A stretch of 64,000 bases of DNA from Enchytraeus crypticus. Lineage: Eukaryota; Annelida; Clitellata; Enchytraeida; Enchytraeidae. Positions 2,991 to 19,558 of the stretch are shown here, in pieces. Below the pieces are notes generated by a model. It made no database searches. It saw only the letters and a program-made list of their open reading frames with translations, and had not been told where the DNA came from. A program made the translations under genes and the position numbers. Location: assembly GCA_905160935.1 (NCBI GenBank), contig CAJHZI010000425.1:986001-1050000 (forward strand), in the 5' to 3' direction. How positions within the stretch are numbered: position 1 is the stretch's first letter; the number at the start of each line of letters is the position of its first letter.

Positions 2991-3130
2991 AAAGCTGGTA
3001 AAGCTATGGTTAACATCATCTTCCTCACTCGAAAGTGATGTCAGTGACGGGAGAGCTCAAGATTTGAACCCGCACATACTGATCCGCGGTCGAGTATCTT
3101 ATCGACTTCGTCACTGGCTCCAGCCAGTGG
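2991..3130 (-). mobile_element. SINE-A copy, near full length
   Basis: Minus-strand head GAGCCAGTGACGAAGTCG (A-box region), B box GGTTCAAATC, core GTGAGGAA and end TTTACCAGCTTT. tRNA-derived by its internal RNA polymerase III promoter boxes. Confidence 0.75.
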
Positions 3131-3411: not shown

Positions 3412-6400
3412 GTGAGTAGCAGAAGTAATAGATACCGAGGGCTGGAAAAATGTCATAATTAATTCACTAAATCAATAAATAAATCAGATTGTTGATCAAT
3501 TATTTCAATTAGTCAATATAGCAATCAATAGGCTATCACTCGTTATTCAACTTATTATGATTTAACGTCCTGTTCCACGTCTTGATAAAGACGAGCAGGG
3601 GCGGATCCAGGAATCTTTTAAGGGGGGGCCGAAAATATTTTTTGAGAGTGTACACATTTTTTGCTTACGCCACGCCTTCTTCGGGGTATGTGACGAAACT
3701 AGAAAAAATGCTGTGGGGGGGTAAATTTTTCACTACTTCGCTCGGCTCACAGAGCGAGTGTATTCCCGTATCTTACCCCCCCCCCCCAGTCTACCCGTAC
3801 TAAAGTCTGGGGAAAACCTAAAATTCCTAAAATCCTACATTTGTTGTGGACAAAAGCAGGTTAATATTTTCACCTTCGAAGAAACTCAGCGGATCTGGGC
3901 GAATTGCAAAAATGACCTAATTTTGGCGGTATGGGCCCCTCCTAGCCGTGGCTGTTTGCACCACTGCTCCGGGATAGAGTTCACATTTTTTACTCAAACC
4001 CTTTTCTCCTCTTATACGTTGGTTTATGTGAAAATTAAGAGGTAGTGAAACGGTCAACCTTTTTTGGCCCCCCCATCCATACAGGCCTCCTAGTGTGCAA
4101 ATATATAGGACCCTAGTGGGGTCCACATTTGAAAAAATTCGAACAATAGTAGAACTAAGTTCCCTCTCTACCCCCCCCCCCCCCCAACCACTGCCCTTAC
4201 AAACATATTTATACATACAAATTATCATAGAAACAATGAAAATATAGTTTACCTTTCTTCGACGGACCTAGGGGGGGCCCGGGCCCCCTGGGCCCCCCCT
4301 GGATCCGCCACTGAAGACGATATATTTTATAAAGTTGGAGAAATCGATAATAATATAATAATTTAAGGTTCTCAAGAACAGCACTTATAAACTTAAAACT
4401 TCAAATTTGGTACAGATTTCTTAAGCTAGGTTCAAATACAGTAACATATGACAATAAGGAATTCATGTAACCATAAAATAAAGACTACCTTGATTTCATT
4501 TGATTCCTCAGAACGTTTTAGATAAATAGCGTTAAAAACTAGACATTATTTCGGAGAAATAAAGACCATGCATATATTTGTGCTACTCATAAATGATTCG
4601 TACAGGGCTGAGGAACTCTGGACTTCCACTAAGGACGCTATGGAGCTGCTGCATCCATCAGGATCTGCGTCCACGAGTCCCAGTCTTAGAGAACAGGTCG
4701 CCAAGGCCAACAGGATCCTTCGACGTTCGCATCGCTTGGGAGGTCTGTTCATGTTCTAGCGTTATTACACAGATCTGTTACTTTAAATTTACGAACAACT
4801 AACTATAATTATTATTCAACATTGCACGTGGTTTTAACGTCGTCTTTTCGCTGCTGAAGATAATGTTTGAGACATCTAAAGCTGATTAGATAACCACGTA
4901 AAGATTTGAAGTCCAAGACACATTTTAATTAGAAAAGACCGAAGAAAAAAGACGTTCTTAAACTATGAAAATTCGTTAATTTTATAGTATTTCAAGAGAA
5001 AATATTTGCGTTTTACACGAGATCATGGACGGTGTTTGAACAGCTCAAGCAAAATTGATTTATTTTATATATTCCGACTACACAAACAATATAACATATG
5101 CAATATAAAATTATCAACTGCTCAGTTTTAGCAGTCAAGTTATTCAATGAAATAGAATTGTATAATTTCGGTTTTGTTTTGTTTCAATTGGACTGCATAT
5201 TTTTATTTTTTATTTGAAAGGATCTTTATACAAGAATAGAAAGAACAATATTACCGGTGATGTATCAGGGAGCAAAGATAAACAGAAGCGCTCATCTGAC
5301 ATTATGCAAGGTTTGGTTTTAATGATGTTTGGCTATTAGAAAATCTGTTTTTGACGTTTAATAATTTGTGTAAGATTTTTAAAAATTTGTATTGAAGTTG
5401 GCGATTTTCAAAATAGTTATATTACTATGACCTGACATATGGTTAGTAAGCTGTTAATATAATGGCCTTTTTAACTTTATACCTGAGAATTTTTGATCTC
5501 ATGGCGTTTTTACAATTTAGAACCGTATACCAGTTTTTCGCATAGAATGCCTGTTCAGAGATAATAATAAAATGGCACTGCACTAAACAGACAAATGTGA
5601 TACCCAGATCTTTTTCTCCGAAATGAAGAAATTTTAAACCTTAGCGAAAAATTGAAGAAAATATTAAATGTTTAGAGGAAAACAAAAACATCATGAAACA
5701 AAAGGCATCGGTCGTTGAACAGGAGTTGGCATATGGAGAGCACTCTTAAGTAGACTAGGTACTAATTGACGAATAGACTTAGACTTAAAAGACTTAGACT
5801 TAAGATACTTAGACGAGATAATAGACTTTGACTTAATAGACTTCGACTTAGTGGACTTAGACTTAGTAGCATTAAACTTAATAGATTTAGACGAGATAAT
5901 AGACTTTGACTTAATTTATATACTTTGACTTAATAGACTTCGACCTAATAGGCAGAGACGAGATAATAGACTGCGACTCAATAGACTTAGACTTTATAGA
6001 CTAAAAATTGATTACAACATTTAGATAGATACAAATTTTGCTCATACAGCAAAAACATCAATCTTGGCATCATCCATGCTTTCTCAGGAAGGAGAACGTA
6101 GATCATGGAAAGTGCGATTCAGTCGTATTATATAGGATTGTAGGTGTATAGATGAGGTGTAATATCTCAGTCCGAATAAATAATAACAATGGCTTACTTA
6201 CCGAATCCGTAACTAGTTAATCATCCTGGGCTCTATCATATATACTACGAACATTTGCATGCAATGTATGTTTTGATTTTGATATTCGTAATATTAGAAA
6301 TTTTCATAGACGACAGTAGCGCTCTAATCATGCTGCTGTTGTTGTTTGTTTAGTGTTCGATGTTCTCATAAACAATTACTGTAGAGTAGTGATGTTGCTG

Positions 6401-9400
6401 TAGCGCTGTTCGAAGCCGTTGAAGATGGAGATTTGGTTAGAGTGCAGGATATGCTCACAGAGGCAGATTGGAATGACCTGGATATAAACAGGTGTGTGTG
6501 CGCACGTATGTATGGTTGTATGCGTGTATGTGTGTGTGTGCATGTCTGTATGGTGGCATGCGTGTATGTGTGTGCACGTATGTATAGTGGTATGTGTGTA
6601 GGCCTATGTGTGTGTGTCAAAGACGCATCTTCTAAAAATATAGAACGCCATTACAAGCCGATCTACTGAAGCTATCTGCAGAAAAATAAATTGTGCTGAA
6701 GAGAACTTATGTTTTAATTACACGGTGCCAGTCAGATGTTCTGTATCTAAGGTTTTCCATAGGCATTTGTAATGAGCTCCCATATGAAACTAAGTGGAAA
6801 ATTAAATTGTGATACAATTTTATTTGATCATAGCCTACCTACTAGCTTTTAGTGTATAAAGCTGGTAAAGCTAATGCTAACCTCAGTTTCCTCACTCGAA
6901 AGCGATGTCAGTGACGGGAGAGCCCAGGAATACTGCCATCAATGGATGCACTTTAAATAAAGAATTTAAACACCGTCTAATCTTTCCTAGACCATAATAA
7001 ATGTGAGAGATTTATATCATTATAGTCCAATATTGTCCCACATTTTATTGTATTTTCACAATTCACATAGAATTTATGTGCGGTAGCTTTATGTGAATTT
7101 GTATTGCAGTGTTAACTCTGACGACTTGACATGTCTTGATACGGCCATGCTCACAAACCACGCCCACATTGCTCGTCTGCTCATCCTTCACGGAGCTCAA
7201 GAAAACCGAAAACGTGGGTGTTAAACTTTCACTTTTCTGTTTTCCGAAGGGTCATGCATTTTTAATCATTACTTCAAAGCTTTCTGACTTTACGTAAGGA
7301 TCGTTTGTTGTTGTAGCGGCCTTTTTTTCTCTAACAAGTCTCTAATAATTTATACATCATTATACAGAAAAGGAAAGAAGAAATGACAGGAGCAGCATGT
7401 GAATTATTGATGTAAGCGCAATTACATTACAGTAGAAACACTAGCGCAATATTAAAGCAATAGAACGTGATCCGCAGCTGAGATCTGTTAAGGAGTTAGA
7501 TTTCCCAACAAGTTAAGCAGAATGCATAAATTTGCTTAAGTCCGACACCAGAAAATTCTGAGTCAGGTGTAATAATATTTGACGGTTTAGTAGTACTATT
7601 CATCTTTCTAAAGATTATGTCATATTCATAGCCGACTTTTCTGATATTGGTAGTAATTTGAAAATATGCTTATTATAAAGTATCTGCAATTAAAGATATT
7701 ACATGAGATACTCTACATGTATGTATTTAAAATAATAATACTTCTCCTGTTCAACTTGACATTCAGTAGTTTACGGACAAATGGTATTGCTTCATTGCGC
7801 TCATGTCCTTTATGAAGTAGGCTAACAAGAGAGTGTAGCACATTACTAGAGCGTGAGACTCTGAATCGTTGGAATTAGACTCAAATCCATGTACTTGATT
7901 CCATGTTCAATGTACTTGTATGTCGTATGTGTATGCTCTATATTGGTGCGTATATTTGTTGTATGTATAGTCTATGTTGTTATGTATTTTTAAATGTTGT
8001 AAGCTCTATGTGGTTGTATGCATTTGAATTCCGTATGTATGTTTAATGTTGTTGCGTGTATTTAAATGCTATATCTATACTCTCTGTTATTGTATGTATT
8101 TGGATGCTGTATTTATACTCTCTGTTGTTGCATATATTTGGATGCTGTATGTATAATCTATATTCCTGCATTTATTTGAATGTTGTATAGATAGTCAATG
8201 TTGCTGCATAAGAATGTTGTATATAGGCTCTATATTGTTGCATCATTGCATGTATTTGAATTTTGATTATATAGTCTATATTGTTGGAGTACTTGTATGT
8301 TGATGTACGTTCTATGTTATTGTTGTTGTTGTACACACAGTACAAGAGTCAGTGGGACAGATGGTGAGGCACGTTGAGGGACTGTACGGAGAGGCGGCGC
8401 TGAGAGTCTCGGAGCTGAGACTGGCCCTCAGCTCATCTACTTCCTCGAGCAACAACCAGTCCAGTCTGCTGAAGGTTAAATTAACCCTAAGTAATTTAAT
8501 AAAAATCTTAAATCTGCATTTATATATTGTTATCAGATTCCAGTTATTTTATTGTTTGATGGCAACAACCAATCCAGTCTGAAGAAGGTTAAATTAGCTA
8601 AACTTAGTTTCATAAAAATCTTAAATCTGCATTTATATATTGTTTATATTAGTCAGATTCTATCTGTATGAAGTCTTTTATCTTTATGATTTTGCCTGAT
8701 GATCTCAATGAAATAGAAGGTTAATATCCAGAGAAATAAAGAACTTTCATAGCTTATTATTTATTGAGGGCATATTAACAAACAATATCAATGATGCAAC
8801 ACTGAAATTTGAACAAATGAACATGCAGTTAATCCCAGGTCCAAAAGCATTTCGAAAATGTATTCTATCATCAACTCTATACGATCCGATAACTTTAAAT
8901 TAATTGTTACTTTTTCGACAACTTCGAAATAAATCAACTGTTTTACATTATACTTATGTGCAATTAAATGACTAAAGATAGCAAAACCTACATTTAATGG
9001 ATCTATCCTGCGGGAATCAAAATGTAAAGTATTATAAAAAATATGACCTAGTAAATGCATGTAAAGGCTGGTAAAGCTAATGTTAACGTCAGTTTCCTCA
9101 CTAGAAAGCGATGTCAGTGACGGGCGTGCCCAGTATTTGATCCCCGCATATGCATGTACAGATCCGCATTGAATATCTTACCGATATCGCCACTGGCTCC
9201 AGCCAGTGAACAGTTATTTCTTCTGGTGCTAAATGCAATACGTTATTTACTGTTTAACCACCAACATCTATCTGCAATATCTAATATATAAATATCTGCA
9301 ATAAATAATAAGATGAGGTAAAGAAATGTCGAAATTTTTCTACGAAAAAAAATACTTCAACCGCTGACTGATGCCGTATATCACAAGTCATTTAATGTGC

Positions 9401-12400
9401 TACTTTATTTTGCAGGAAAATGAGAAATCTTTGATTCATTGGCAGCTGAGGAAAAATTTGTTCAGTCAGATGAAATCTGTTCTCGTCTCTTCAAGTAATA
9501 TAACTATCTGCTTTCTTATTACCCGATACCTTAAACCTGTTTTCTTACGGCCTGCTTTATAAAAGTGCGCTTTCTTACTGCCTACTTTCATACTGCCTGC
9601 TTTCTTACTGCCTGCTCGATAACTCGGCGCTTTTCTATTTATCTAATTAATTTTTGCAAAATTGAGTCTGCAATTTGAGTTGAGATTATTAATTTTAGCC
9701 AGAGAGAAACTTTGAAATTAATTAATTAATTTTAACCAAATCAGTGCGCTTAGTTTGCTATTTGTTCTAGTTGAATTTTAACTACTTCTGTCATTTAGAA
9801 TACTTCCTTGTTTTATATTATCTACGTTTAGTGTATACGTATTTTATTTTGATATTTTTCTAAACATTATATTTAGAAAAAAATATTTATAAATATTTGA
9901 CTTGACATACTGATCATATTACTGATTGTATAACTATGGTATTCAGTAATATTCATAATTTTAGCAAACTATGTTTCATAAATAATTAATATTTAATAAA
10001 TAATTTTTTGTGGGATACGGTCTTTAAGAGAGGTATGAAAATTAGGGGATTAATTGGTGCTAAGGTATGGGATAGAGAGATGTGGAGAAGGTCTCTTATT
10101 ATCCCGACCCAATCTAAACTAGGTTTTAAGGGAAGATGATGATGGTGATTTAATAACCTGGAGCCAGTGGTGATGTCTATAAGACATTCGACCGCGGATC
10201 ATTATGTGCGGGGTTCAAACCCTGGGCTCGCCCGTCACTGCCATCGCTTTCGAGTGAGGAAGCTGACGTTAACATTAGCTTTTTATCAGCTTTAATAAAT
10301 AATGTATGCTGTTTATATGACAATACTGATGTCGTACAGTTTTTGAAATCTCATTGTTTCTCTTTTCTAAGATCCACCCAAAGAACCTGAGAGTGTAATT
10401 CTGAACGTCTCGGGTGAGAGTTCAATCACCATCACATTCCTCGAATCAGCTGATACATCTCATGGCCTAGCCACACACTACAGGGGTAAGGCTAACAATT
10501 TATACGTGAACATTTTCAGATTAATTTAAGTGCCACAAAATGATAACCAGCGGAGCTTAGCTTTTTTACAAAACAGAAATTGTTAGTCATTGTCCATCAC
10601 ATTGTGGATGATTTATCTGTTTCAATTTCCATCTTTCCATTTCTCTCTCTTTCTCTATTCCTATTTCTCCCTGTCTATATCTCTCTCTTTCTCTCTCTCT
10701 GTCTCTCTCTCTCTTCCACTTTCTCTCTTTCTATTTAATCTCTTGCAATTTCGCTTCTAATTTCAGTTGAGTGGAGTAAGACGGAAACATTCGAGACCTT
10801 ATATGGTTGTAAGATTGTGGATGAGCCGGATTTTGAAACGACTACAAACGAGAGATTTGGCTACCGGATCTACATAACGAATCTGTCCCAGGGAGAACTC
10901 TACTACATCCGGTTGTCAGCAGGAAACTTCAGCGGATACAGTAAAAGAGTCCCAAGCTCTCCACCTTGCGGGAGACCTTCAAGTATGGGACACAAGTTTA
11001 CATCTATCAACGATCAGTCAATCAATCATCGAGTAGTTAATCAATCAATCAATAATAATTTAACGTCCGGTTCCTCGCCATGAGGCAATGACAGGAACGT
11101 GATTAACGGCCATATAAAGCTAGAAGCTAACGTTGACGTCAGTTTCCTGACTCGTAAGCGACGATAGTGACGGGCGAGCCTACGATTTGAACCCCGCACA
11201 TACTGATCCGCGGTCGAGTACCTTAACGACGTCGTCACTGACTCCAGCCAGTATATAGTTATACAGTAACATTATTATCTGTAACTATAATAAAGTAACT
11301 ATAATAAATGACTTTTTTCACTTTTGCAAAATTTGACTCGATTTTGCACAGTTTGGCGGAACCAGTTTTTATATATCAACGATCAGTGGATCAACCACAG
11401 AGTATTTACTGGCTTTTACAATTATGGCTTTATGTACACAATTGTCTGAATTATGTAACTATAATAAAAAGTTACATTTCATTTTTGCAAAATTTGACTC
11501 GATTTGCAGCAATGGTGATATATCGTTATTCGATTCACAACAAATTATTTAGTAAATGAAACTAAAAACAAATTTGCTAAAAATTGTGCAAAATCCAGTC
11601 TAAATATCAGCAATTAAAGCTGTCGCTAAGTCATCACGCCAATGCACACTAAAATGGAATATATGCAGTCTATATAAAAAATTGTTCATGGGCTTGAAAG
11701 TTTTGAAGTAATTTTATAAATTTTATATACAGATTTCTTTCTATGTTACTGCACTTTGGATCGAGAATTCGCTATGTTAAAACCAGTCAACTTTATAGGA
11801 GTTACATGTATAACAGATCCTTCATGGATTTTGTATATAGGCCTACATATGTAGTAATCTGTCATCTTCCTCGAGCCCATGCTTAAAGAAATACTATAGA
11901 GTAAAATGCTTTGATTAAGTCATAACATTTTTATCCTGTTTCATCATGCCATTCATATGCTTAATGTTTAATGTTTAATTGAGTATATCATGCAAAGGAA
12001 TCTCTATACTTAACAACAGTTACAGTAAAACGTGCAATATTCAATAAAACGCACACAGTAAAAATCACTAAAAAACCAAATAACTATCATACGTAACGTA
12101 GCTTAAATATTGGAATCTGATAAATTTATTAGTGAGTAGAATTTAAATGGAATGATCTAGCTAAACTATGTGTCGTAAGACTCTTCTTAAAGCTATCAGG
12201 CTTATCAGAGTGTCTGTTTCTTATGCGCCATTACGTTTCACAGATTGGAGAGAACAGAGCGGAATGAAGCCGCGCTGCGATGGAAAGATTCAGCTTATGG
12301 ATCAGCTCTTTCAAGACTTGAAGGACTTAAGACTCCCTGATGCTGCAGAAATTAAAGGTATGATGAAAGTTAATAAATTAATTATAAAATAACTCCTTTG

Positions 12401-15400
12401 CAAATTAACATGATTGAATTTCTTTACTGCACACACTGCTTGATCGATGGCTGATTAAAAAACTGAACTAATGTGAATTCTCAGTTGCTAATTGTCCTCC
12501 TCTTACTTCGCCTTCAGTTATTTTTTTATTTCTATATTTCGTACCTGTTTTAGATGAAACGGTATGTAATACAATCCCGGTTCCGGGCCGGAAACTGACG
12601 GTTAAGAAGAGTCTAAAATACATTTTTTCTACTTCTCCCAAAAAATTTCAACGGACAGTGAAAAGGTATGCCTATGTCAGTTGCATTTTGTAATTAATTA
12701 CTTAGTTATACTTTGATATTGCTGAACATTTATTGTCATGTTTTAGAAAGGTTTTTATCTTGACTTGTAATTCAAATACCCATAGTGAGTGGAAATATTT
12801 TCATGGCGGTTGAAAGCGCATGATTAATGCATTCTTTCTGAAATAATTTAAAATTTAACGGAGACTATGTATTTCTGATAATTGAGCGGTTGTCAGTTAT
12901 ATTTTTCATTTTTTTCATCTCACTGATTCTACAGACATGTATGGTTATATAGCTGTTTGCATAAGTGCTCGATTTAGTCTTGGACAAGTGTAGCCCTCCA
13001 ATCATGCTGTTGTTGCTCTTATGAAATATATTAGTTTATTTCTGGATGTCGTAATGTATTGTCCGGTGTACATGTATATCTGGGTAATATATTTCAATTT
13101 TTTTCGAGTGCATATAATGACGCTAGGATTGCAGCGCTGTATTCGGGCTGTTTTGTGTATTACAGGGGTATATGGGTTCTCTGATACATTATAAGAGTGC
13201 TCATTTGGGTGCTCTCAATATGGTAGAGTTGTGTATCTGGATACTCTGATATATTATATAGGACTATGCAGCTGAGAGTTTTGCTATATTTTATTATATA
13301 CTGTCGGTGTATATATCTTGGTGCTCTGCTATATAATAGAGATGTGTACCCGGATGCTCTATTGTTTTAGGCGTCTATATGTGTATATGGCTGCTCTAAT
13401 GTTTTAGAGGTGTATATGGGTGCTCGAATGCTTTAGGGGTGTATATAGGTGCTCTAATGTTTTAGGGGTGTATATAGGTGCTCTAATGTTTTAGGGGTGT
13501 ATATGGGTTCTCTAATGTTTTAGGGGTGTATATAGGTGCTCTAATGTTTTAGGGGTGTATATGGGTGCTCTAATGATTTAGGGGTGTATATAGGTGCTCT
13601 AATGGTTTAGGGGTGTATATGGGTGCTCTAATGATTTAGGGGTGTATATGGCTGCTCTAGTGTTTTAGGGGTGTATATGGGTGCTCTAATGTTTTAGGGG
13701 TGTATATATGGCTGCTCTAATTTGCTGTGGAGATCGTATACTTGTCACACACGAGGATACCATTCCAGTTGTAGAAGTCCACGAGGAGTTCTCGTCCAGT
13801 TCAATTCTCAGTGATTACTACTGGCTGATCAAGGTTCGAATCTTGCCAAACCTGATCAGTCTCATCTCATGTATTTGAAAATATTCGAAAGTTTCTATAC
13901 TAAATCTTCGCAATAATTATCAATATTAACAGCTTAATAATAATGCCTGAAGGAATAATATTATAATTAAATATAACAATAATAATAGTAACATCATTCC
14001 TGATGTCAGTCTAGAAGCGGAGGCAGAAGTTAAACCTATATAAACGCTAATAATTATTATTTAGTAGAATTATAAAAATAAATAAATATTCTTTTAATAT
14101 TGTGTTTCCAATTATAGGTCTCTTATAATTGATTGCTCTCAGATTCGATCAGTAAATTAAATAAACGGGCAAAAACCAATTACTATAACTATTACTAAGT
14201 ATAACTAGTGTAACTAATTTACGGGGGTATACAATCTAACGTGTAAGCCCGATAGTAAGTATTACAATTAATCATATCTCTACGTGTGTGACGTCATTCG
14301 ATACGTCATGCTGTATAGAAAAGTATTTTCGTATTAACAGATAGCGTGCACGTGGAAGGATGTCAAATCCTTGAGGACTGATCTCGAGAAGAGTTCCAGT
14401 TCCGGTTCAATGCAGTTCAGATACAGACTCCTGCAGGCTTTATCTCTACTCCAGGTACTACTATATCTCTACTCCAGGTACTAATCTATCTCTACTCCAG
14501 GTACTAATCTGTCTCTACTCCAGGTACTAATATGTCTCTACTCCAGGTACTAATATGTCTCTACTCCAGGAGATTAAATTTATTTCGAGATTAATTTGTA
14601 AGAAGGCATTCTTACATGTATAATTAAACCATGAGTTTAATCATAATTCTATTATTAAAATCATAATACTATTATTAAAATCATAATACTATTATTAAAA
14701 TCATAATACTATTATTAAAATCATAATAATATTATTAAAATCATAATACTATTATTAAAATCATTATGATAAATCATAATACTAAGATTTTGTTTTAGAC
14801 GGCGGTTGGTGTGCAAGATTTGGGTCAGTTTTATCACAAGCCGATCAGAGACAACGCTGGGGCCATTGTTCTCACTACCGTAAAATGTGTTAAGACCACC
14901 AAACACATTTCTCTCGGGCAGTTCATGCGGTGGATGCCGTTGAGTAAGGTCTGCAGAAGATCTGCGGAGACCAACTCAGGATGCGAACCCACGGCACTGG
15001 ATATGCTTCTTGAATCCACTCAGGTTGGTCTAAATGCGTCAACTGGTGAAGCATTTATTTGCTGTTTTATTCGTGTAATTAATTTAACGCATTTATAAAG
15101 GCTTATTATGAAGTCTTCCGCTTGTCATTTTAACACCGTAACATAAAGTGTCTAAATTGTAACATAATAACACAGATGTATAGTACAGTGAGTCAGAAAA
15201 CATTTGAATCGCTGTTAAAGGCATTGAATGCAAAAGTAAACCTATTTAATCAATTTTTATTAACAATATTTAAATAAAATAACACCGTTTCTTTAACTTT
15301 GCTCAAATATCAACTGTATGTAGGTTCTATACCATGTATGTGGTTTATGGACACTTAAAAATACTCTTGCCTACTCTTTCTTGTATTATATGCTTCATAA

Positions 15401-16240
15401 ATTAATTATTGTATTAGATACGTTAGCATAATTATATGTATGATATACCAATAGATCATCATCACCTTCCTTTAAATCCCAATTTAACTAGGGCCGAGAT
15501 ACGAATAGACCTTCTCCATTCTTCTCTGTTCCACACCATGTCATCATTCAATCGACATTTTTCATGTCCTTCTTAATCGTCGCATCCCACGTCAGTTGTG
15601 GTCTACCTCTCTCTAGCTTAACGTACAGCAAAACTCTCTTTACTATATCCACATCTGCCTTTCTCACAATATGCCCATATCATCCCAATCTCGACTGAGC
15701 CAATCTATGCCTAATCTCTTCAACATTCAAATTCATCATAATTTATTCATTATCCATTTTTTATTTATTTATGTTATATTAATAACTATTAATAATTAGT
15801 ATTAATAGATAAACATTTTTAAATGTGAACTGTGTTAAATGTACAGGATTTAATAGACTACCACAAGACGAGCAGCAAGCCTATAGAAAGAGGCCTGTAC
15901 TTGGGCTACCTAAAGCTCTATAGCTCTATGGAGCTCATTCAGATTATGACTCCGCAGAAAATCTCCAATGTTCTGCCTCACATAAAAATCAGGGATTGCT
16001 CCAATGTTACGAGGTCAGTTCCTTAGTCAAGTTTTCTTGCTTTTGAAAGTGTTGAAGTTATATCATGATACATGTATATATTTTGATATTTTCAAATTTC
16101 TCTAGCTCGCTCTCTCCATCTTTCTCTCTGAATCTCTGTTTTCTCTTTCTTTTTTCTTTCGCTCTTTCTCTTCGCCTATCTCTTAGTATTGCCTAGTGGC
16201 AAATCCATGGCACATAGCTAGTACACAATTCCATTCAACA

Positions 16241-16315
<75 letters not shown>

Positions 16316-19300
16316 GTTCAATATGCTTATATTTTATATATATATATATATACCGGAAATATAATAACCATTTCAAGTTTTGAATGTTTTTTGTCAATGT
16401 TCAGATTAGAATCTTATTAATTCATAATTAATTTTAAATATTCACTTGCATTTTTTATTCTCGACAAAACACAAGAAAATCAATATGCTTATATTTTATA
16501 CCTGGTCTGTTGTTTCAACATAATGCGCTTTGTAGGCCTGTTTGATTAACAAAAGCCAATTTTATACCATTTTACAGAGAAGAATGGCAATGGCTTAAGA
16601 ATTTGAACGATAGCAAGAATTTAACAGAAAAACCGTCACAAGCTCAAATTAATTTTCAACTTGACATTGCATCGGCATGCGTCAAACTACTCAACGACCT
16701 GGGTATGTACATTCTTGTAGAGGATATTGTTTTAAATAAAATGATAGGATGTATATTGGACTATTCAATGGCCCGGATATTATACTGGAATTTAATCAAT
16801 CTAAATATTGACATACTATTCTTAAAAGTGATTGCTAAATGACTTTAATTTCTGATAAACTAAAATGGTCTTAGTCAATGATATAGGACTGTTTGCTTTA
16901 TACTTTTACAAACCTACAAATTAAACACAACTAATATTCAGTAATTAGTTAAATGATAATTAATAAATATTTTATATTACAGGAGAATCAGATTTTGATA
17001 GTCACAGACTCTATGATATGGAGGTGATAGAAATAAGTTCAGAAGTTTCTTTCATATTGATATTGCCAAGAGTTCACAGTGTTTGCGCATTGCCCGGCCA
17101 AACTGAGCAGGCTAATCTGGGCTGCAAGATGCTTCCAGTTCAAGTCTTCGAAATGAGTGAGTCACGTAGAAGTTCTTATCTTATTTACTTTCAATAAAGT
17201 AGAATAGGACAGTTCTTGAACTGTTTCGATGTGTTATCTATTTATATATGTACGGAGCATAAGTCAGCTCCTTCGGGCTTTGTGTTTTTGAACTTTATCA
17301 ATATCTTGTGTATGGATGCAAGGCGACTCAACTGAAATGATTCAGATTGTAATTTTCTATTGTAGGCTAATTAAATTTCAATCCATGAAAATTAGTAACA
17401 GTTCCATGAAACCACTTTAAATTTTAGTAGGATGTTGGTAATGATTAAACTATGCTTGGAGTCAGTGGCGATGTCTGTAAGATATTCAACCAAGGATCAG
17501 TAGGTGCGGGGATCCAATCCTGGGCTCGCCCGTCATTGACATCGCTTTCGAGTGAGGAAACTGAAGTTAACATTAGCTTTTTAAATAAGTTAATCAAAGA
17601 ATTGAACTAAAAACTAAATTACTGTATTTCAGTTCACATGAGAACGTATCAGTATGACTTCATCAGTCGCTACTCCAGACTCTCCTCTCTGCTAGAGATA
17701 GACATTCACTTGGCTCATCAACATCAGAGACAGGTAAGTCTTTAGAACTAATGGAACGCCATGATCTTAATGAATTATAGATTTCCTACGTGACTCGTTA
17801 TGCCGGGACCGTATTGTGCTCGGTTGATGGCATAACAAACCAATGGTGATCGACATGTACAGTGTATAAAGACTACTAAATTGTTATTACTATAACTTTT
17901 TTACTAAATTACTAAATTATATTTACTAAATTATATTTACTAATTATATTTACTAAATTATATTTACTAAATTATATTTACTAAATTATATTTACTAAAT
18001 TATATTTACTAAATTATATTTACTAAATTATATTTACTAAATTAAAAAAGACTAAATAATAAATAGGCATTAGTTGAATACAGTAATATGAACCCAAGTC
18101 AAAGTACACATTTTCTCAATTTAATGCAAAAATGCTCAAATAAGCGTTGATAATGACGCAGCCGTTGTGGTGGGTGAAAAGACAATTTAATGCCATGTCT
18201 CTGTTTCCGTTACAAATCCTCTTGTTGACGTTTTTAAAGCCAACAAACTTCTGAAAACCCTTTATATAAAAAAACTTTGTCCAACTTATTAATAACTTAT
18301 CTAACTATTTGACTGAGCTATTCCTGCTCTCGCGAGTGATGTGTATGCTTCTATAACATCTACTGTGTTTAAAAAGCTAATGTTAACGTCAATTTCCTCA
18401 CACGAAAGATATGTCAGTGGCGGGCGAGCCTAGGATTTGAACCCCGCTCATACTGATTCGCGGTCGAATATCTTACCGACATCGCCACTAGCTCCAGCCA
18501 GTGGCGATATTTACTTCTTGGTTATCATCTTAAGATGACAAAGCATTTTTAATTTTTTCATTGGAAAGGCATTCTCGACGGAAGAGATGGACTCTGCTCG
18601 GCGCAGGCTGGATCAGCTGACGATCTTCCAGCAGCGACTGGACGACATATGGAGGTCCGTCAGGTGGACTATGGATATCATCACGTACGCCAGAGACAGA
18701 AATCTCAGGGGCGGAATCCCCCTCAGAGAACTCGGTCAAAATTCCGGTCAACTCCCCAGCAACATCTTCAATAATAACATCTGCAAAGCTCCGCGGCGGC
18801 TAATCAATGACTCAGCAGAAAATAGAACAAAAGAATTCGAGAATGATCTTCTGGAAAAGGAAAATTTCTCAGGATTTTGTAGAAACAGGAGTAAGAACGA
18901 AAATAAAATGATAAAGGTCTATATAGATAGCGAAATACTTCCGACTGTTGCGATAAAACAAGAAAACGAAAGTGATTTCACAAACGGTCATAGAACGCTA
19001 GATTATAAGGTAAGTAACGTATCGGATAACCCGTTAGATACTTGCACAACAAGAAGGTGCGAGAATAAATCTGAAAGTGATAAAGTATATGAACGTGAAC
19101 TCGATGTTTTAACCGGATCTCTGATCAAAGTAAAAAATAAACAACACGACAGCAGAAACGGAGTAGTAGATTGTGGAGGTAGTTCAGACTACAACAAAGA
19201 ACATCTGCAGGAATTTCAAAGTAACAAATTTCAAGATTTTCACAAATCTAAATGTCAATGTTCGTCTCCAAATCACGCATTAGAAATATCCGGTCACCTT

Positions 19301-19558
19301 CTGCATCAAAATGCAACCGCTGCTGATGTAATACAAATTGTGCATGAAATGCTATTTCCAGAAACATCTAATTCTTTGTCATCTAAACTTAGCGGAGGAG
19401 TAATAAGAGTCGACGATCTTTGTCTCTTGGATGGAGATAGAAAGCGGTTAGAAAATAGTGTAACTGTTGACATGATTTCCAATAGTGAATTAATACTGCA
19501 ATTGGTTCCGCCGTTAAAACGAGAAAGGTTCCACGGCACTGAAGATTATCAGTCTTAA
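3265..19558 (+). CDS. ANKFN1: ANKFN1 / Wide awake (Nmf9) homologue, 18 visible exons, 5' incomplete
   Basis: Spliced exons: 3265-3411, 4606-4742, 6404-6491, 7110-7213, 8341-8474, 9415-9494, 10372-10485, 10767-10982, 12244-12357, 12554-12665, 13698-13833, 14341-14454, 14799-15023, 15847-16013, 16578-16702, 16983-17156, 17633-17733, 18569-19558. Every junction has GT/AG borders and matching phase, giving about 1,090 codons to the stop. Seen in order: ankyrin-type segments (ALFEAVEDGDLVRVQDML, then LDTAMLTNHAHIARLLILHG), a fibronectin III domain beginning PPKEPESV, a long conserved middle region, WRSVRWTMDIITYARDR, and a C-terminal segment that may be the Ras-association-like domain of this family. 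From family knowledge: Drosophila Wide awake/Banderuola acts in clock-driven sleep and in asymmetric division, and mouse Ankfn1 (Nmf9) in neurological function; it is a cytoplasmic adaptor without known enzyme activity. The first visible exon has no in-frame ATG, so upstream exons are missing or unrecognised. Confidence 0.88.
3596..4313. mobile_element. Non-autonomous hAT-like DNA transposon (MITE)
   Basis: Ends are CAGGGGCGGATCCAGG and its inverse CCTGGATCCGCCACTG, followed inward by G-rich and C-rich runs. Flanks are 8-base direct repeats, AAGACGAG (3588-3595) and AAGACGAT (4314-4321), as expected for hAT target-site duplication. The 718-base interior shows no transposase. It sits in or beside a fragment of the SINE-C family. 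Confidence 0.75.
4606..4742 (+). CDS. ANKFN1: ANKFN1 exon before the ankyrin repeats
   Basis: Acceptor TACAG and donor G|GTCTGT. It enters in phase 2 and leaves in phase 1. The peptide begins AEELWTSTKDAMELL and ends ANRILRRSHRLG, an amphipathic lead-in to the ankyrin segment. Confidence 0.75.
5765..6000 (+). repeat. Degenerate GACTTAGACTTAATA tandem repeat
   Basis: Overlapping 6-, 12- and 24-base versions of AGACTTAGACTTAATAGACT in an ANKFN1 intron. Units vary widely, so this is an old array. Confidence 0.7.
6404..6491 (+). CDS. ANKFN1: ANKFN1 ankyrin exon 1
   Basis: Encodes ALFEAVEDGDLVRVQDML and then a loop ending DLDIN. The A-L-F-x-A-V-x-x-G-D-L pattern is the first helix of an ankyrin repeat. 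The donor AG|GTGTGT opens straight into a GT-rich microsatellite (6492-6620). Confidence 0.85.
6492..6622 (+). repeat. GT-rich degenerate microsatellite at an ANKFN1 donor
   Basis: Variants of GTGTGTGTGCACGTATGTAT begin exactly at the donor AG|GTGTGTG of the exon ending 6491. Confidence 0.75.
6858..6929 (-). mobile_element. SINE-A copy, 5' truncated
   Basis: Only the core (CACTCGAAAGCGATGTCAGT) and the 3' end remain. The tRNA-like head is missing. Confidence 0.65.
7110..7213 (+). CDS. ANKFN1: ANKFN1 ankyrin exon 2
   Basis: Encodes LDTAMLTNHAHIARLLILHG, a canonical ankyrin helix pair, and ends GAQENRK. Acceptor GCAG, donor C|GTGGGT. Confidence 0.88.
7900..8330 (+). repeat. Degenerate tandem repeat of about 40 bases
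   Basis: Repeated GTATGTATTTGAATGTTGTA plus TAGTCTATGTTGTTG variants, about ten copies. It ends just before the acceptor at 8340. Confidence 0.65.
8341..8474 (+). CDS. ANKFN1: ANKFN1 exon after the ankyrin repeats
   Basis: Encodes a helical segment (VGQMVRHVEGLYGEAALRV) followed by a serine-rich stretch ending SSLLK. Acceptor CACACAG, donor AAG|GTTAAA, phase 0. The exon end and donor are copied again 113 bases downstream (see findings). Confidence 0.8.
8448..8660 (+). repeat. Tandem duplication of an ANKFN1 exon end with its donor
   Basis: AACAACCAGTCCAGTCTGCT plus GAAG|GTTAAATTA at 8451-8483 is repeated as AACAACCAATCCAGTCTGAA plus GAAG|GTTAAATTA, with the donor at 8588. The following ATAAAAATCTTAAATCTGCA stretch is repeated too. 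Offset is 113 bases. Confidence 0.85.
9062..9208 (-). mobile_element. SINE-A copy, full length
   Basis: Complete, with head, diverged B box and CTGGTAAAGCTAATGTTAAC end on the + strand. Confidence 0.75.
9415..9494 (+). CDS. ANKFN1: ANKFN1 linker exon
   Basis: Encodes ENEKSLIHWQLRKNLFSQMK and a few more residues. Acceptor TTGCAG, donor TCAA|GTAATA. It continues the helical segment before the fibronectin III domain. Confidence 0.82.
10013..10146 (+). mobile_element. Retrotransposon 3' end fragment
   Basis: Encodes KVWDREMWRRSLIIPTQSKL followed by GFKGR and a stop, then GATGATGATGG. It is the same C-terminus and 3' tail as at 15474-15735 and 40837-40925. A SINE starts about 15 bases downstream. 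Confidence 0.55.
10161..10294 (+). mobile_element. SINE-A copy, full length
   Basis: Begins GAGCCAGTGGTGATGTC, has GGGGTTCAAACCCTGG as B box, and ends near CAGCTTTAAT. It lies just downstream of a retrotransposon 3' end (10013-10146). Confidence 0.78.
10372..10485 (+). CDS. ANKFN1: ANKFN1 fibronectin III exon, first half
   Basis: Begins (N)PPKEPESVILNVSG and ends LATHYR. This is the A-to-C strand part of a fibronectin type III domain. The donor GGG|GTAAGG in phase 1 gives YRVEW at the join with the next exon, a typical FN3 C-strand. Confidence 0.9.
10767..10982 (+). CDS. ANKFN1: ANKFN1 fibronectin III exon, second half
   Basis: Encodes EWSKTETFETLYGCKIV and, near the end of the domain, ELYYIRLSAGNFSGYSK. 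The Y-x-x-R-L-S-A-x-N pattern is the F strand of a fibronectin III fold. The exon ends VPSSPPCGRPS. Confidence 0.92.
11036..11096 (-). mobile_element. SINE-C fragment (AATC-tailed)
   Basis: AATCAATCAATC run, then ATTTAACGTCCGGTTCCTCG and CATGAGGCAATGACAGG. The same order of parts occurs at 20040 and 53829. Confidence 0.6.
11114..11252 (-). mobile_element. SINE-A copy, full length, next to a SINE-C copy
   Basis: Diverged but complete: head at 11252, B box GGTTCAAATC on the minus strand, core and 3' end. A SINE-C fragment lies immediately to the left. Confidence 0.72.
12244..12357 (+). CDS. ANKFN1: ANKFN1 exon after FN3
   Basis: Encodes WREQSGMKPRCDGKIQLMDQ and ends DAAEIK. Acceptor TTTCACAG, donor G|GTATGA, phase 1 in and out. 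Confidence 0.85.
12554..12665 (+). CDS. ANKFN1: ANKFN1 exon with the VPGRKLTVKKSLKYIF segment
   Basis: Encodes TVCNTIPVPGRKLTVKKSLK followed by a basic segment ending KKFQRTVKR. It belongs to the ANKFN1-specific conserved region. Donor AG|GTATGC, phase 2. Confidence 0.88.
13030..13370 (+). repeat. Degenerate outer part of the acceptor minisatellite
   Basis: Loose variants of GGTGTATATGGGTGCTCTA with longer spacers precede the regular 29-base array. They suggest an older, decayed array edge. Confidence 0.5.
13371..13718 (+). repeat. 29-base minisatellite that copies a splice acceptor and exon start
   Basis: One 37-base unit, then ten 29-base units of GGGTGTATATNGGTGCTCTA plus ATGTTTTAG. Each ends in an AG acceptor. 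The last copy is the real acceptor (13697) and first bases of the ANKFN1 exon. Confidence 0.9.
13698..13833 (+). CDS. ANKFN1: ANKFN1 exon whose acceptor lies in a minisatellite
   Basis: Encodes GVYMAALICCGDRILVTHED and ends SDYYWLIK. Joined to the previous AG it reads RGVYMAAL, as expected for the family. The acceptor TTTTAG|G and the first 20 or so exon bases are the last copy of a 29-base tandem repeat. Donor AAG|GTTCGA. Confidence 0.88.
14341..14454 (+). CDS. ANKFN1: ANKFN1 exon whose donor is copied in tandem
   Basis: Encodes IACTWKDVKSLRTDLEKSSS and ends FRYRLLQALSLLQ. The donor CCAG|GTACTA at 14455 is followed by four more copies of the same donor at exact 23-base steps. Confidence 0.85.
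14440..14572 (+). repeat. 23-base minisatellite that copies a splice donor
   Basis: TCTCTACTCCAG|GTACTAAT units, with donors at 14455, 14478, 14501, 14524 and 14547. A sixth, terminal copy has lost the GT. The first copy is the real exon end. Confidence 0.92.
14636..14790 (+). repeat. 20-base AT-rich tandem repeat
   Basis: About seven copies of AAAATCATAATACTATTATT, ending just before the acceptor at 14798. Confidence 0.85.
14799..15023 (+). CDS. ANKFN1: ANKFN1 conserved middle exon
   Basis: Encodes VGVQDLGQFYHKPIRDN, VLTTVKCVKTTKH and SGCEPTALDMLLESTQ. It is the longest exon of the conserved region, with phase 0 at both ends. The upstream intron holds a 20-base AT-rich repeat right up to the branch region. 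Confidence 0.9.
15474..15735 (-). mobile_element. Degraded retrotransposon 3' end (RTE-like tail family)
   Basis: The minus strand reads YGHIVRKADVDIVKRVLL, LERGRPQLTWDATIKKDM and ends with the LNWDLRK tail. The terminal nucleotides (AACTGGGATTTAAGG type) match the tails near 10115, 40837 and 61900. Several stops: a dead fragment. Confidence 0.6.
15847..16013 (+). CDS. ANKFN1: ANKFN1 conserved exon (GLYLGYLKLYSS)
   Basis: Encodes IERGLYLGYLKLYSSMELI and ends IKIRDCSNVT. Acceptor GTACAG, donor AG|GTCAGT. The join to the next exon gives SNVTREEWQWL, a family signature. Confidence 0.9.
16090..16225 (-). mobile_element. Pyrimidine-rich tract joined to a diverged retrotransposon tail
   Basis: A TCTCTT-rich run, then TCTTAGTATTGCCTAGTGGC and AATCCATGG, a diverged version of the tails at 1422 and 56240. 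Confidence 0.3.
16242..16355. repeat. (AT)n microsatellite
   Basis: Two TA runs (16246-16308 and 16336-16352) in an ANKFN1 intron. Confidence 0.9.
16578..16702 (+). CDS. ANKFN1: ANKFN1 conserved exon (EEWQWL)
   Basis: Encodes EEWQWLKNLNDSKN and ends SACVKLLNDLG. Acceptor TTTACAG, donor G|GTATGT. Confidence 0.88.
16983..17156 (+). CDS. ANKFN1: ANKFN1 conserved exon (HRLYDMEVIEIS)
   Basis: Encodes SDFDSHRLYDMEVIEISSE, then hydrophobic VSFILILPRV, and ends KMLPVQVFEM. Acceptor ATTACAG, donor A|GTGAGT. Confidence 0.88.
17457..17584 (+). mobile_element. SINE-A copy in ANKFN1 intron
   Basis: GGAGTCAGTGGCGATGTC head, mutated B box, intact GAGTGAGGAAACTGA core. It ends about 48 bases before the acceptor of the exon at 17633. 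Confidence 0.72.
17633..17733 (+). CDS. ANKFN1: ANKFN1 exon (RTYQYDFISRYSRLS)
   Basis: Encodes HMRTYQYDFISRYSRLSSLL and ends DIHLAHQHQRQ. Acceptor ATTTCAG, donor CAG|GTAAGT, phase 0. Confidence 0.88.
17890..18045 (+). repeat. 14-base tandem repeat (TTATATTTACTAAA)
   Basis: About eleven near-identical units in the last ANKFN1 intron. Confidence 0.88.
18371..18503 (-). mobile_element. SINE-A copy in the last ANKFN1 intron
   Basis: Full length, minus strand, ending CTCCAGCCAGTGG at 18503, about 65 bases before the terminal exon. Confidence 0.72.
18569..19558 (+). CDS. ANKFN1: ANKFN1 terminal exon
   Basis: Opens AFSTEEMDSARRRLDQL and WRSVRWTMDIITYARDR, the strongest family match in the window. 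A low-complexity, acidic, Asn/Ser-rich stretch of about 170 residues follows. The last 80 residues are hydrophobic and ordered (SGHLLHQNATAADVIQIVHE, SELILQLV), in the position of the Ras-association-like domain of the family. It ends in TAA. No clear AATAAA was located just downstream. Confidence 0.9.
   Translation, partial: AFSTEEMDSARRRLDQLTIFQQRLDDIWRSVRWTMDIITYARDRNLRGGIPLRELGQNSGQLPSNIFNNNICKAPRRLINDSAENRTKEFENDLLEKENFSGFCRNRSKNENKMIKVYIDSEILPTVAIKQENESDFTNGHRTLDYKVSNVSDNPLDTCTTRRCENKSESDKVYERELDVLTGSLIKVKNKQHDSRNGVVDCGGSSDYNKEHLQEFQSNKFQDFHKSKCQCSSPNHALEISGHLLHQNATAADVIQIVHEMLFPETSNSLSSKLSGGVIRVDDLCLLDGDRKRLENSVTVDMISNSELILQLVPPLKRERFHGTEDYQS

Follow-up and report, generated by a model that had tools for sequence, protein, structure and literature searches.

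The ANKFN1 Homologue and Its Exon-End Array

The window, by which we mean the whole analysed stretch of 64,000 nucleotides, carries on its forward strand a gene whose model was built from open frames and splice signals. The model comprises 16 exons from 6385 to 19558, with 15 of 15 introns running from GT to AG, consistent phases, and a product of 1003 residues followed by a stop codon, free of internal stops; more exons lie upstream and were left unjoined. In hand-joined pieces of the gene, a fibronectin type III domain scores above the Pfam cut-off, and ankyrin repeats give a weak match. Exon 15847-16013 encodes GLYLGYLK, a peptide which the cited portion of PMC4488434 describes as nearly invariant in animal Nmf9/ANKFN1 proteins, and on this ground the gene is, as judged from its sequence, a homologue of Nmf9/ANKFN1. 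The sequence-only reading of this DNA had already assigned the exon under study to ANKFN1 and had ended it at 14454, and both assignments hold: the peptide supports the first, and the phase-0 join to the following exon, within a model that has no internal stop, supports the second. Neither Pfam nor PDB yielded a match, at E up to 1, for a 158-residue stretch around this junction; the join from 14454 to 14799 accordingly rests on phase, splice signals and the open frame. The features discussed here are collected in Table 1.

Table 1. Features of the ANKFN1 homologue, of the rest of the window and of the myosin loci (positions are those of the window unless a locus is named; a slash marks a splice junction).
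Feature	Position	Strand	Remarks
Preceding exon	13698..13833	+	Acceptor is the last copy of the 29-base array
Acceptor-spanning array of the preceding exon, 29-base unit	13381..13721	+	TRF; sequence different from that of the 23-base array
ANKFN1-homologue exon	14341..14454	+	Open, phase 0 at both ends, 38 codons; copy 1 takes in its final 16 bases (14439-14454)
23-base tandem array over the exon-intron junction	14439..14570	+	TRF; five full copies and a partial sixth
Copy 1	14439..14461	+	Donor 1 at 14454/14455; the only one of the five donors to keep the frame into 14799
Copy 2	14462..14484	+	Donor 2 at 14477/14478; +23, frameshift, stop at codon 36 counted from the normal exon end
Copy 3	14485..14507	+	Donor 3 at 14500/14501; +46, in-frame TAA at codon 10 counted from the normal exon end
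Copy 4	14508..14530	+	Donor 4 at 14523/14524; +69, TAA shared with donor 3
Copy 5	14531..14553	+	Donor 5 at 14546/14547; +92, TAA shared with donor 3
Copy 6, partial	14554..14570	+	CTACTCCAG then GAGATT, no donor
Intron, 344 bases	14455..14798	+	GT-AG, phase 0; contains the 20-base AT-rich array (AATCATAATACTATTATTAA) at 14639-14764
Next exon (TAVGVQDLGQFYHK...)	14799..15023	+	Phase 0, part of the 16-exon model
Short interspersed repeat (GGTTCAAACCC-like)	about 3000-3130, 9060-9220, 10150-10280, 17470-17580, 18370-18510	both orientations	Identified by eye
Donor array	L054		70-base unit
Donor array	L055		27 to 31-base unit
Donor array	L067		41-base unit; six copies of AAAG/GTATTTTA, the real one included
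Donor array	L075		44-base unit
Acceptor array	L065		54-base unit
Acceptor array	L069		83-base unit
Acceptor array	L066, 466-1099	gene on reverse strand of locus	53-base unit, 11.6 copies, upstream; TGATCGATAG/AATCACGATGAAAGG repeated

The exon end lies within a tandem array in which five identical copies of TCTCTACTCCAG/GTACTA follow each other at steps of exactly 23 bases. In each of them CTACTCCAG ends at the last base before the donor listed in Table 1, and GTACTA stands directly after it. The recurrence of the donor at this spacing, and the identity of the copies around the junction, had been proposed from the letters alone; the same four further GT positions were recovered, TRF agrees, and the invariant block common to the five copies, at 18 bases, is longer than had been said. 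TRF reports the array at 14441-14570 with a period of 23, 5.7 copies, 96% matches, no indels and a score of 218, values that rule out a chance origin. When the register is drawn so that a unit consists of 16 exonic and 7 intronic bases, the pairwise differences among copies 1-5 amount to 1-3 of the 23 positions and are confined to unit positions 2, 4 and 23. A partial copy 6, absent from the sequence-only reading, has CTACTCCAG ending at 14569 and continuing into GAGATT, and hence shows CAG/GA where the five units show CAG/GT; four of the five extra copies carry a GT, and the sixth does not. The genome assembly that was searched (524 Mb, 802 contigs) contains one full-length match to the locus. 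The possibility that the 23-base array is copied elsewhere was rejected, as the other listed hits fall only at query positions 313-490 (window 14612-14789), on or around the 20-base AT-rich array, in a search which skips simple repeats and so does not prove absence elsewhere.

Consequences of the Extra Donors

Translation across each of the five possible junctions separates the first donor from the others. The product of donor 1 reads on into TAVGVQDLGQ. Donor 2 adds 23 bases and shifts the frame, as had been suspected, and its product stops after 35 further residues, while donors 3, 4 and 5 all read VLLYLYSRY and then stop; the product of donor 4 stops in spite of the fact that 69 is a multiple of three. 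All four extra donors thus bring a premature stop, and the protein can come only from donor 1. The strength of the sites makes no such distinction, since scoring of each copy gives the five donors the same value. The donor at 14454 is weak, ranking third lowest among the 17 of the gene on a matrix with a prior of human frequencies; of the 899 GTs in this gene, 54 do at least as well. It is therefore not obviously dominant.

Neighbouring Repeats

The preceding exon has a comparable structure at its acceptor. The sequence-only reading had regarded the donor array as a parallel, built from another sequence, to this acceptor array, and the 29-base unit is indeed present over the acceptor of the preceding exon. 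Upstream of the real site lie 11 copies of the acceptor context with an AG, the outermost of them just outside the TRF row. Elsewhere in the gene, a 38-base GT-rich array (6492-6600) begins precisely where exon 6385-6491 has its donor and includes no exonic sequence, and the 20-base AT-rich array lies in the same intron as the 23-base array. Also recognized by eye was a short interspersed repeat, present in both orientations, that carries a tRNA-like B-box motif.

Two further features lie on the minus strand of the window. The segment 48765-49355 encodes a retroelement reverse transcriptase domain (PF00078, E 3.7e-27), and nearby open frames look like part of the same element. At about 38.7-43.5 kb, two long open frames resemble, by eye, a TNRC6/GW182 homologue; they gave no Pfam match at E up to 0.001.

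Tandem Arrays in the Genome and at Exon Ends

Tandem repeats are dense in this genome. Minisatellites, taken as arrays with a period of at least 10 and at least 2.5 copies, make up 8.4% of 80 kb (37 arrays, with a range of 0.4-24% per 10 kb) in eight 10-kb samples placed at round coordinates on contigs with earlier hits, and hence not at random. The G+C content of the same 80-kb sample is 34.9%, and that of Branchiostoma is higher, which speaks weakly against a lancelet host. Searches for the GFP, mollusc-haemocyanin and arthropod-cuticle families gave no match, either here or in the control genomes, and so carry little information on the host. In the ANKFN1 gene, eight arrays (merged TRF rows with a period of at least 14, minus dinucleotide runs and one two-copy row) cover 9.4% of the sequence, and two of them overlap one junction each of the 32 present. 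The proposal that two such arrays in one gene exceed chance was rejected: random placement of eight arrays gives a mean of 2.5 that overlap a junction, against 2 observed, and placement limited to arrays covering at most 30 exonic bases gives a mean of 0.67, with a probability of 0.14 for two or more. A preference of arrays for donors was likewise rejected. Across the whole genome, closely spaced triplets of consensus donors were found at 408 and 348 places on the two strands (756), and the mirrored control at 374 and 431 (805), these being counts of places, of which one array gives many. As the mirrored control is as frequent as the donor triplets, tandem arrays do not favour donors.

A census of exon ends covered one gene family, myosin, in addition to the ANKFN1 gene, and counted an array with a period of at least 7 that covers an exon end. 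Of the 60 ends given by the best 30 among 81 myosin-head matches, 5 lie in arrays, and of the 26 ends from 13 of the other 51 matches, those inside the examined loci, 2 do. This makes seven boundary arrays at the 86 ends of 43 exon matches, junctions that were read by eye from the ends of exon matches, and some of the 86 may be domain ends. Five flagged cases were left uncounted on context (L053, L061, the 61568 exon in L051, the 390389 exon in L066 and the 411005 exon in L071). Pooled with the ANKFN1 gene (2 of 32), 9 of 118 exon ends lie in arrays (95% interval 3.5-14.0%). Around the myosin exons, arrays cover 11.1% of 72,582 distinct flanking bases, in which some unlisted exons are included, and 0.8% of 6,525 exon-interior bases. 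The rate at junctions is in keeping with that of the flanks (the probability of 9 or fewer is 0.14) and far higher than that of exon interior. In the part of the genome that was sampled, arrays over a boundary are common. The view that the pair of arrays in the ANKFN1 gene is exceptional is not supported, given that exon ends lie in arrays at about the rate expected from the density of minisatellites, and that the kind is known from lancelets.

The nine boundary arrays share a common layout, with less than one unit in the exon and the remainder in the intron. Their extra copies mostly retain the splice dinucleotide: 39 of the 43 copies in or next to the nine arrays keep GT or AG (17 of 20 in donor arrays), a count that takes the intron side only and contexts at least 70% alike, that misses shifted copies such as those in L066, and that drops 4 of 47 listed copies lying far from the arrays. 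Over all 47 listed copies, identity to the real site is 0.88 at the splice dinucleotide and 0.87 elsewhere. The retention of the dinucleotide in 39 of 43 copies gives no sign of selection breaking spare sites. In a muscle-myosin exon of L055 (820-1010), the donor of copy 2 (GTAAGT) looks stronger than the real donor (GTAATT). The best matches of a 57-residue muscle-myosin exon are 2ec6 and 2os8, followed by five muscle-myosin heads (1dfk to 1qvi), with Myosin-7 entries among the matches; the seven top ones are scallop entries, which does not decide what the host is.

Probable Origin and Function of the Array

The array at 14454 is a textbook mirage, the name given to a minisatellite that lies over an exon-intron boundary. 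The three defining features that can be examined here are all present, namely a head-to-tail repeat of minisatellite size, a unit that spans the boundary, and splice signals in the copies. Very probably the exon-proximal donor at 14454 is the one used, with donors 2-5 passive and rarely if ever chosen. The array would have arisen by tandem duplication of a 23-base segment straddling the boundary, 16 bases from the exon and 7 from the intron, followed by expansion into the intron. Splicing would then use the exon-proximal donor, the sole one of the five to preserve the protein, and any use of donors 2-5 would yield a premature stop and probably lead to nonsense-mediated decay. A genome that makes minisatellites at high density may be expected to accumulate such arrays at splice boundaries, and selection would leave them uncleared provided that the join from the innermost copy stays in frame. 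We infer the use of donor 1, the near-neutrality of the extra copies, the decay of misspliced RNA and the order of these events from the arrangement described above; the remaining array beyond donor 1 is most likely a tolerated intronic repeat.

The composition of the unit allows a different reading, in which the extra donors do no harm even when they are used. Each unit contains a donor, a branch-point-like TACTAAT and the acceptor-like TCTCTACTCCAG, so that its AG/GT sites might be dual-specific or recursive. Residues left by a wrong donor could then be removed as nested introns of 46, 69 or 92 bases, and such whole-unit excision would shrink the array to one copy in the RNA, making the donor error-tolerant, with the same correct mRNA whichever site was chosen first. 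Four of the five linkers contain TACTAAT, the first has TACTACT instead, and the branch-like A lies 16 bases before the point where the following CAG ends. The AGs of the array are preceded by 12-13 pyrimidines in 17 positions, compared with 7-15 for the 17 acceptors of the gene, and they score from -0.07 to 1.28, inside the range of the real acceptors (-4.96 to 6.33, leave-one-out). The exon end at 14454 has the best acceptor score among the 10 exon ends that finish in AG (0.97, the next being 0.71), and dual-specific AGGT sites are described as enriched in human tandem-repeat genes in the cited part of PMC10809524. These signals are, however, widespread in the gene: 152 of its 875 AGs score as high as the lowest internal copy, and of 3000 random 50-base windows taken from it, 293 contain a match to six of the seven positions of TACTAAC. 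The nested introns would also be shorter than the shortest intron of the model, which has 196 bases, and if donor 1 were joined to the AG at 14569, no donor would remain and translation would run into a stop. Moreover, the other four donor arrays, inspected by eye and unscored, have no comparable pyrimidine tract, so that nested excision cannot explain the general tolerance of such arrays. We consider this reading very unlikely; if true, it would mean that repeats of such composition are buffered against expansion and could seed new introns.

Even less likely, in our judgement, is a working splicing switch, in which several donors would be used in regulated proportions and the frame-breaking ones would lower the output of ANKFN1 via nonsense-mediated decay. 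In its favour, the five donors share 18 identical bases and the same score, and all four extra donors lead to premature stops. Donor strength also matters in the mouse gene, where the nmf9 mutation hits the U1 binding site and causes exon skipping, as reported in the cited portion of PMC4488434. Against this stand the boundary arrays of the myosin genes, which are of other sequence and similarly frequent, and which leave the ANKFN1 array unmarked as selected.

An assembly artefact, with too many or too few units in the assembled array and a different true copy number, is the least likely of all, for although a lancelet mirage was seemingly misassembled in a genome draft (PMC3087553, in the part cited), variants at three unit positions tell the copies here apart, the array extends over no more than about 130 bases, similar arrays occur at unrelated loci, and another copy number would leave its kind unchanged.

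The mirage with passive extra donors thus stands as the preferred interpretation, and its frequency is the useful part of the result: the share of exon ends inside arrays comes near that of flanking bases and is roughly tenfold that of exon interior. If normal mRNAs are confirmed for these genes, the genome would offer many natural experiments in the choice of splicing among near-identical competing sites, the array of L055 included.

Comparison with Known Systems

Mirages have been described in lancelets, and the cited passages of PMC3087553 and PMC3902484 present them as minisatellite-like tandem duplications of intron-exon boundaries, on the 5' or the 3' side, in Adh, the globins BflGb6 and BflGb9, troponin C and PGBD5. 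The Adh case is that of Canestro 2002, here cited via PMC3087553. According to the same passages (PMC3087553, PMC3902484), unit lengths range from 10-72 bases (Adh3) to about 160 bases (globins), many copies keep AG or GT, copy number can vary, and regular splicing and the mRNA are reported to be unharmed. The ANKFN1 array resembles them, as far as these passages go, in consisting of minisatellite-like copies of a boundary, most of which carry the splice signal. It differs in belonging to another gene and perhaps to another animal, as the G+C content and the GFP-family search weakly hint, and also in the kind of evidence, since the effect on mRNA and the variation in copy number were tested in lancelets, while the present array is read from its sequence.

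Other repeats with multiple splice sites are less close. The dual-specific AGGT sites of human UBC, in the part of PMC10809524 cited here, likewise form a regular AG/GT array in which each site is in principle usable both ways; the UBC units are coding ubiquitin monomers spliced in ladders, whereas the ANKFN1 unit has 23 bases, is not a multiple of three, is intronic past copy 1, and is known as DNA. The [D] stwintrons of Lipomyces, as presented in the relevant section of PMC7138796, share the duplication of an existing intron's donor, which is there proposed as one step, and differ from the ANKFN1 array in that the latter shows only the donor duplication itself, has five copies and duplicates exonic sequence too. 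Internal tandem repeats at human exon-intron boundaries, described in the cited portion of PMC2812944, are also minisatellite expansions, with 30-base units and four repeats on average; they were chosen for variable repeats between recent paralogues and are supported by transcripts, unlike the ANKFN1 array. An earthworm paper, in the part cited (PMC12783039), deals with minisatellites within an intron, and not with copies of a boundary. In the parts of the open-access literature cited here, boundary-copying arrays were noticed only for lancelets and human genes. The boundary-copying repeat at 14454 is therefore, with respect to these sources, of a kind already described in lancelets, and if its host is not a lancelet, mirages would extend beyond that group.
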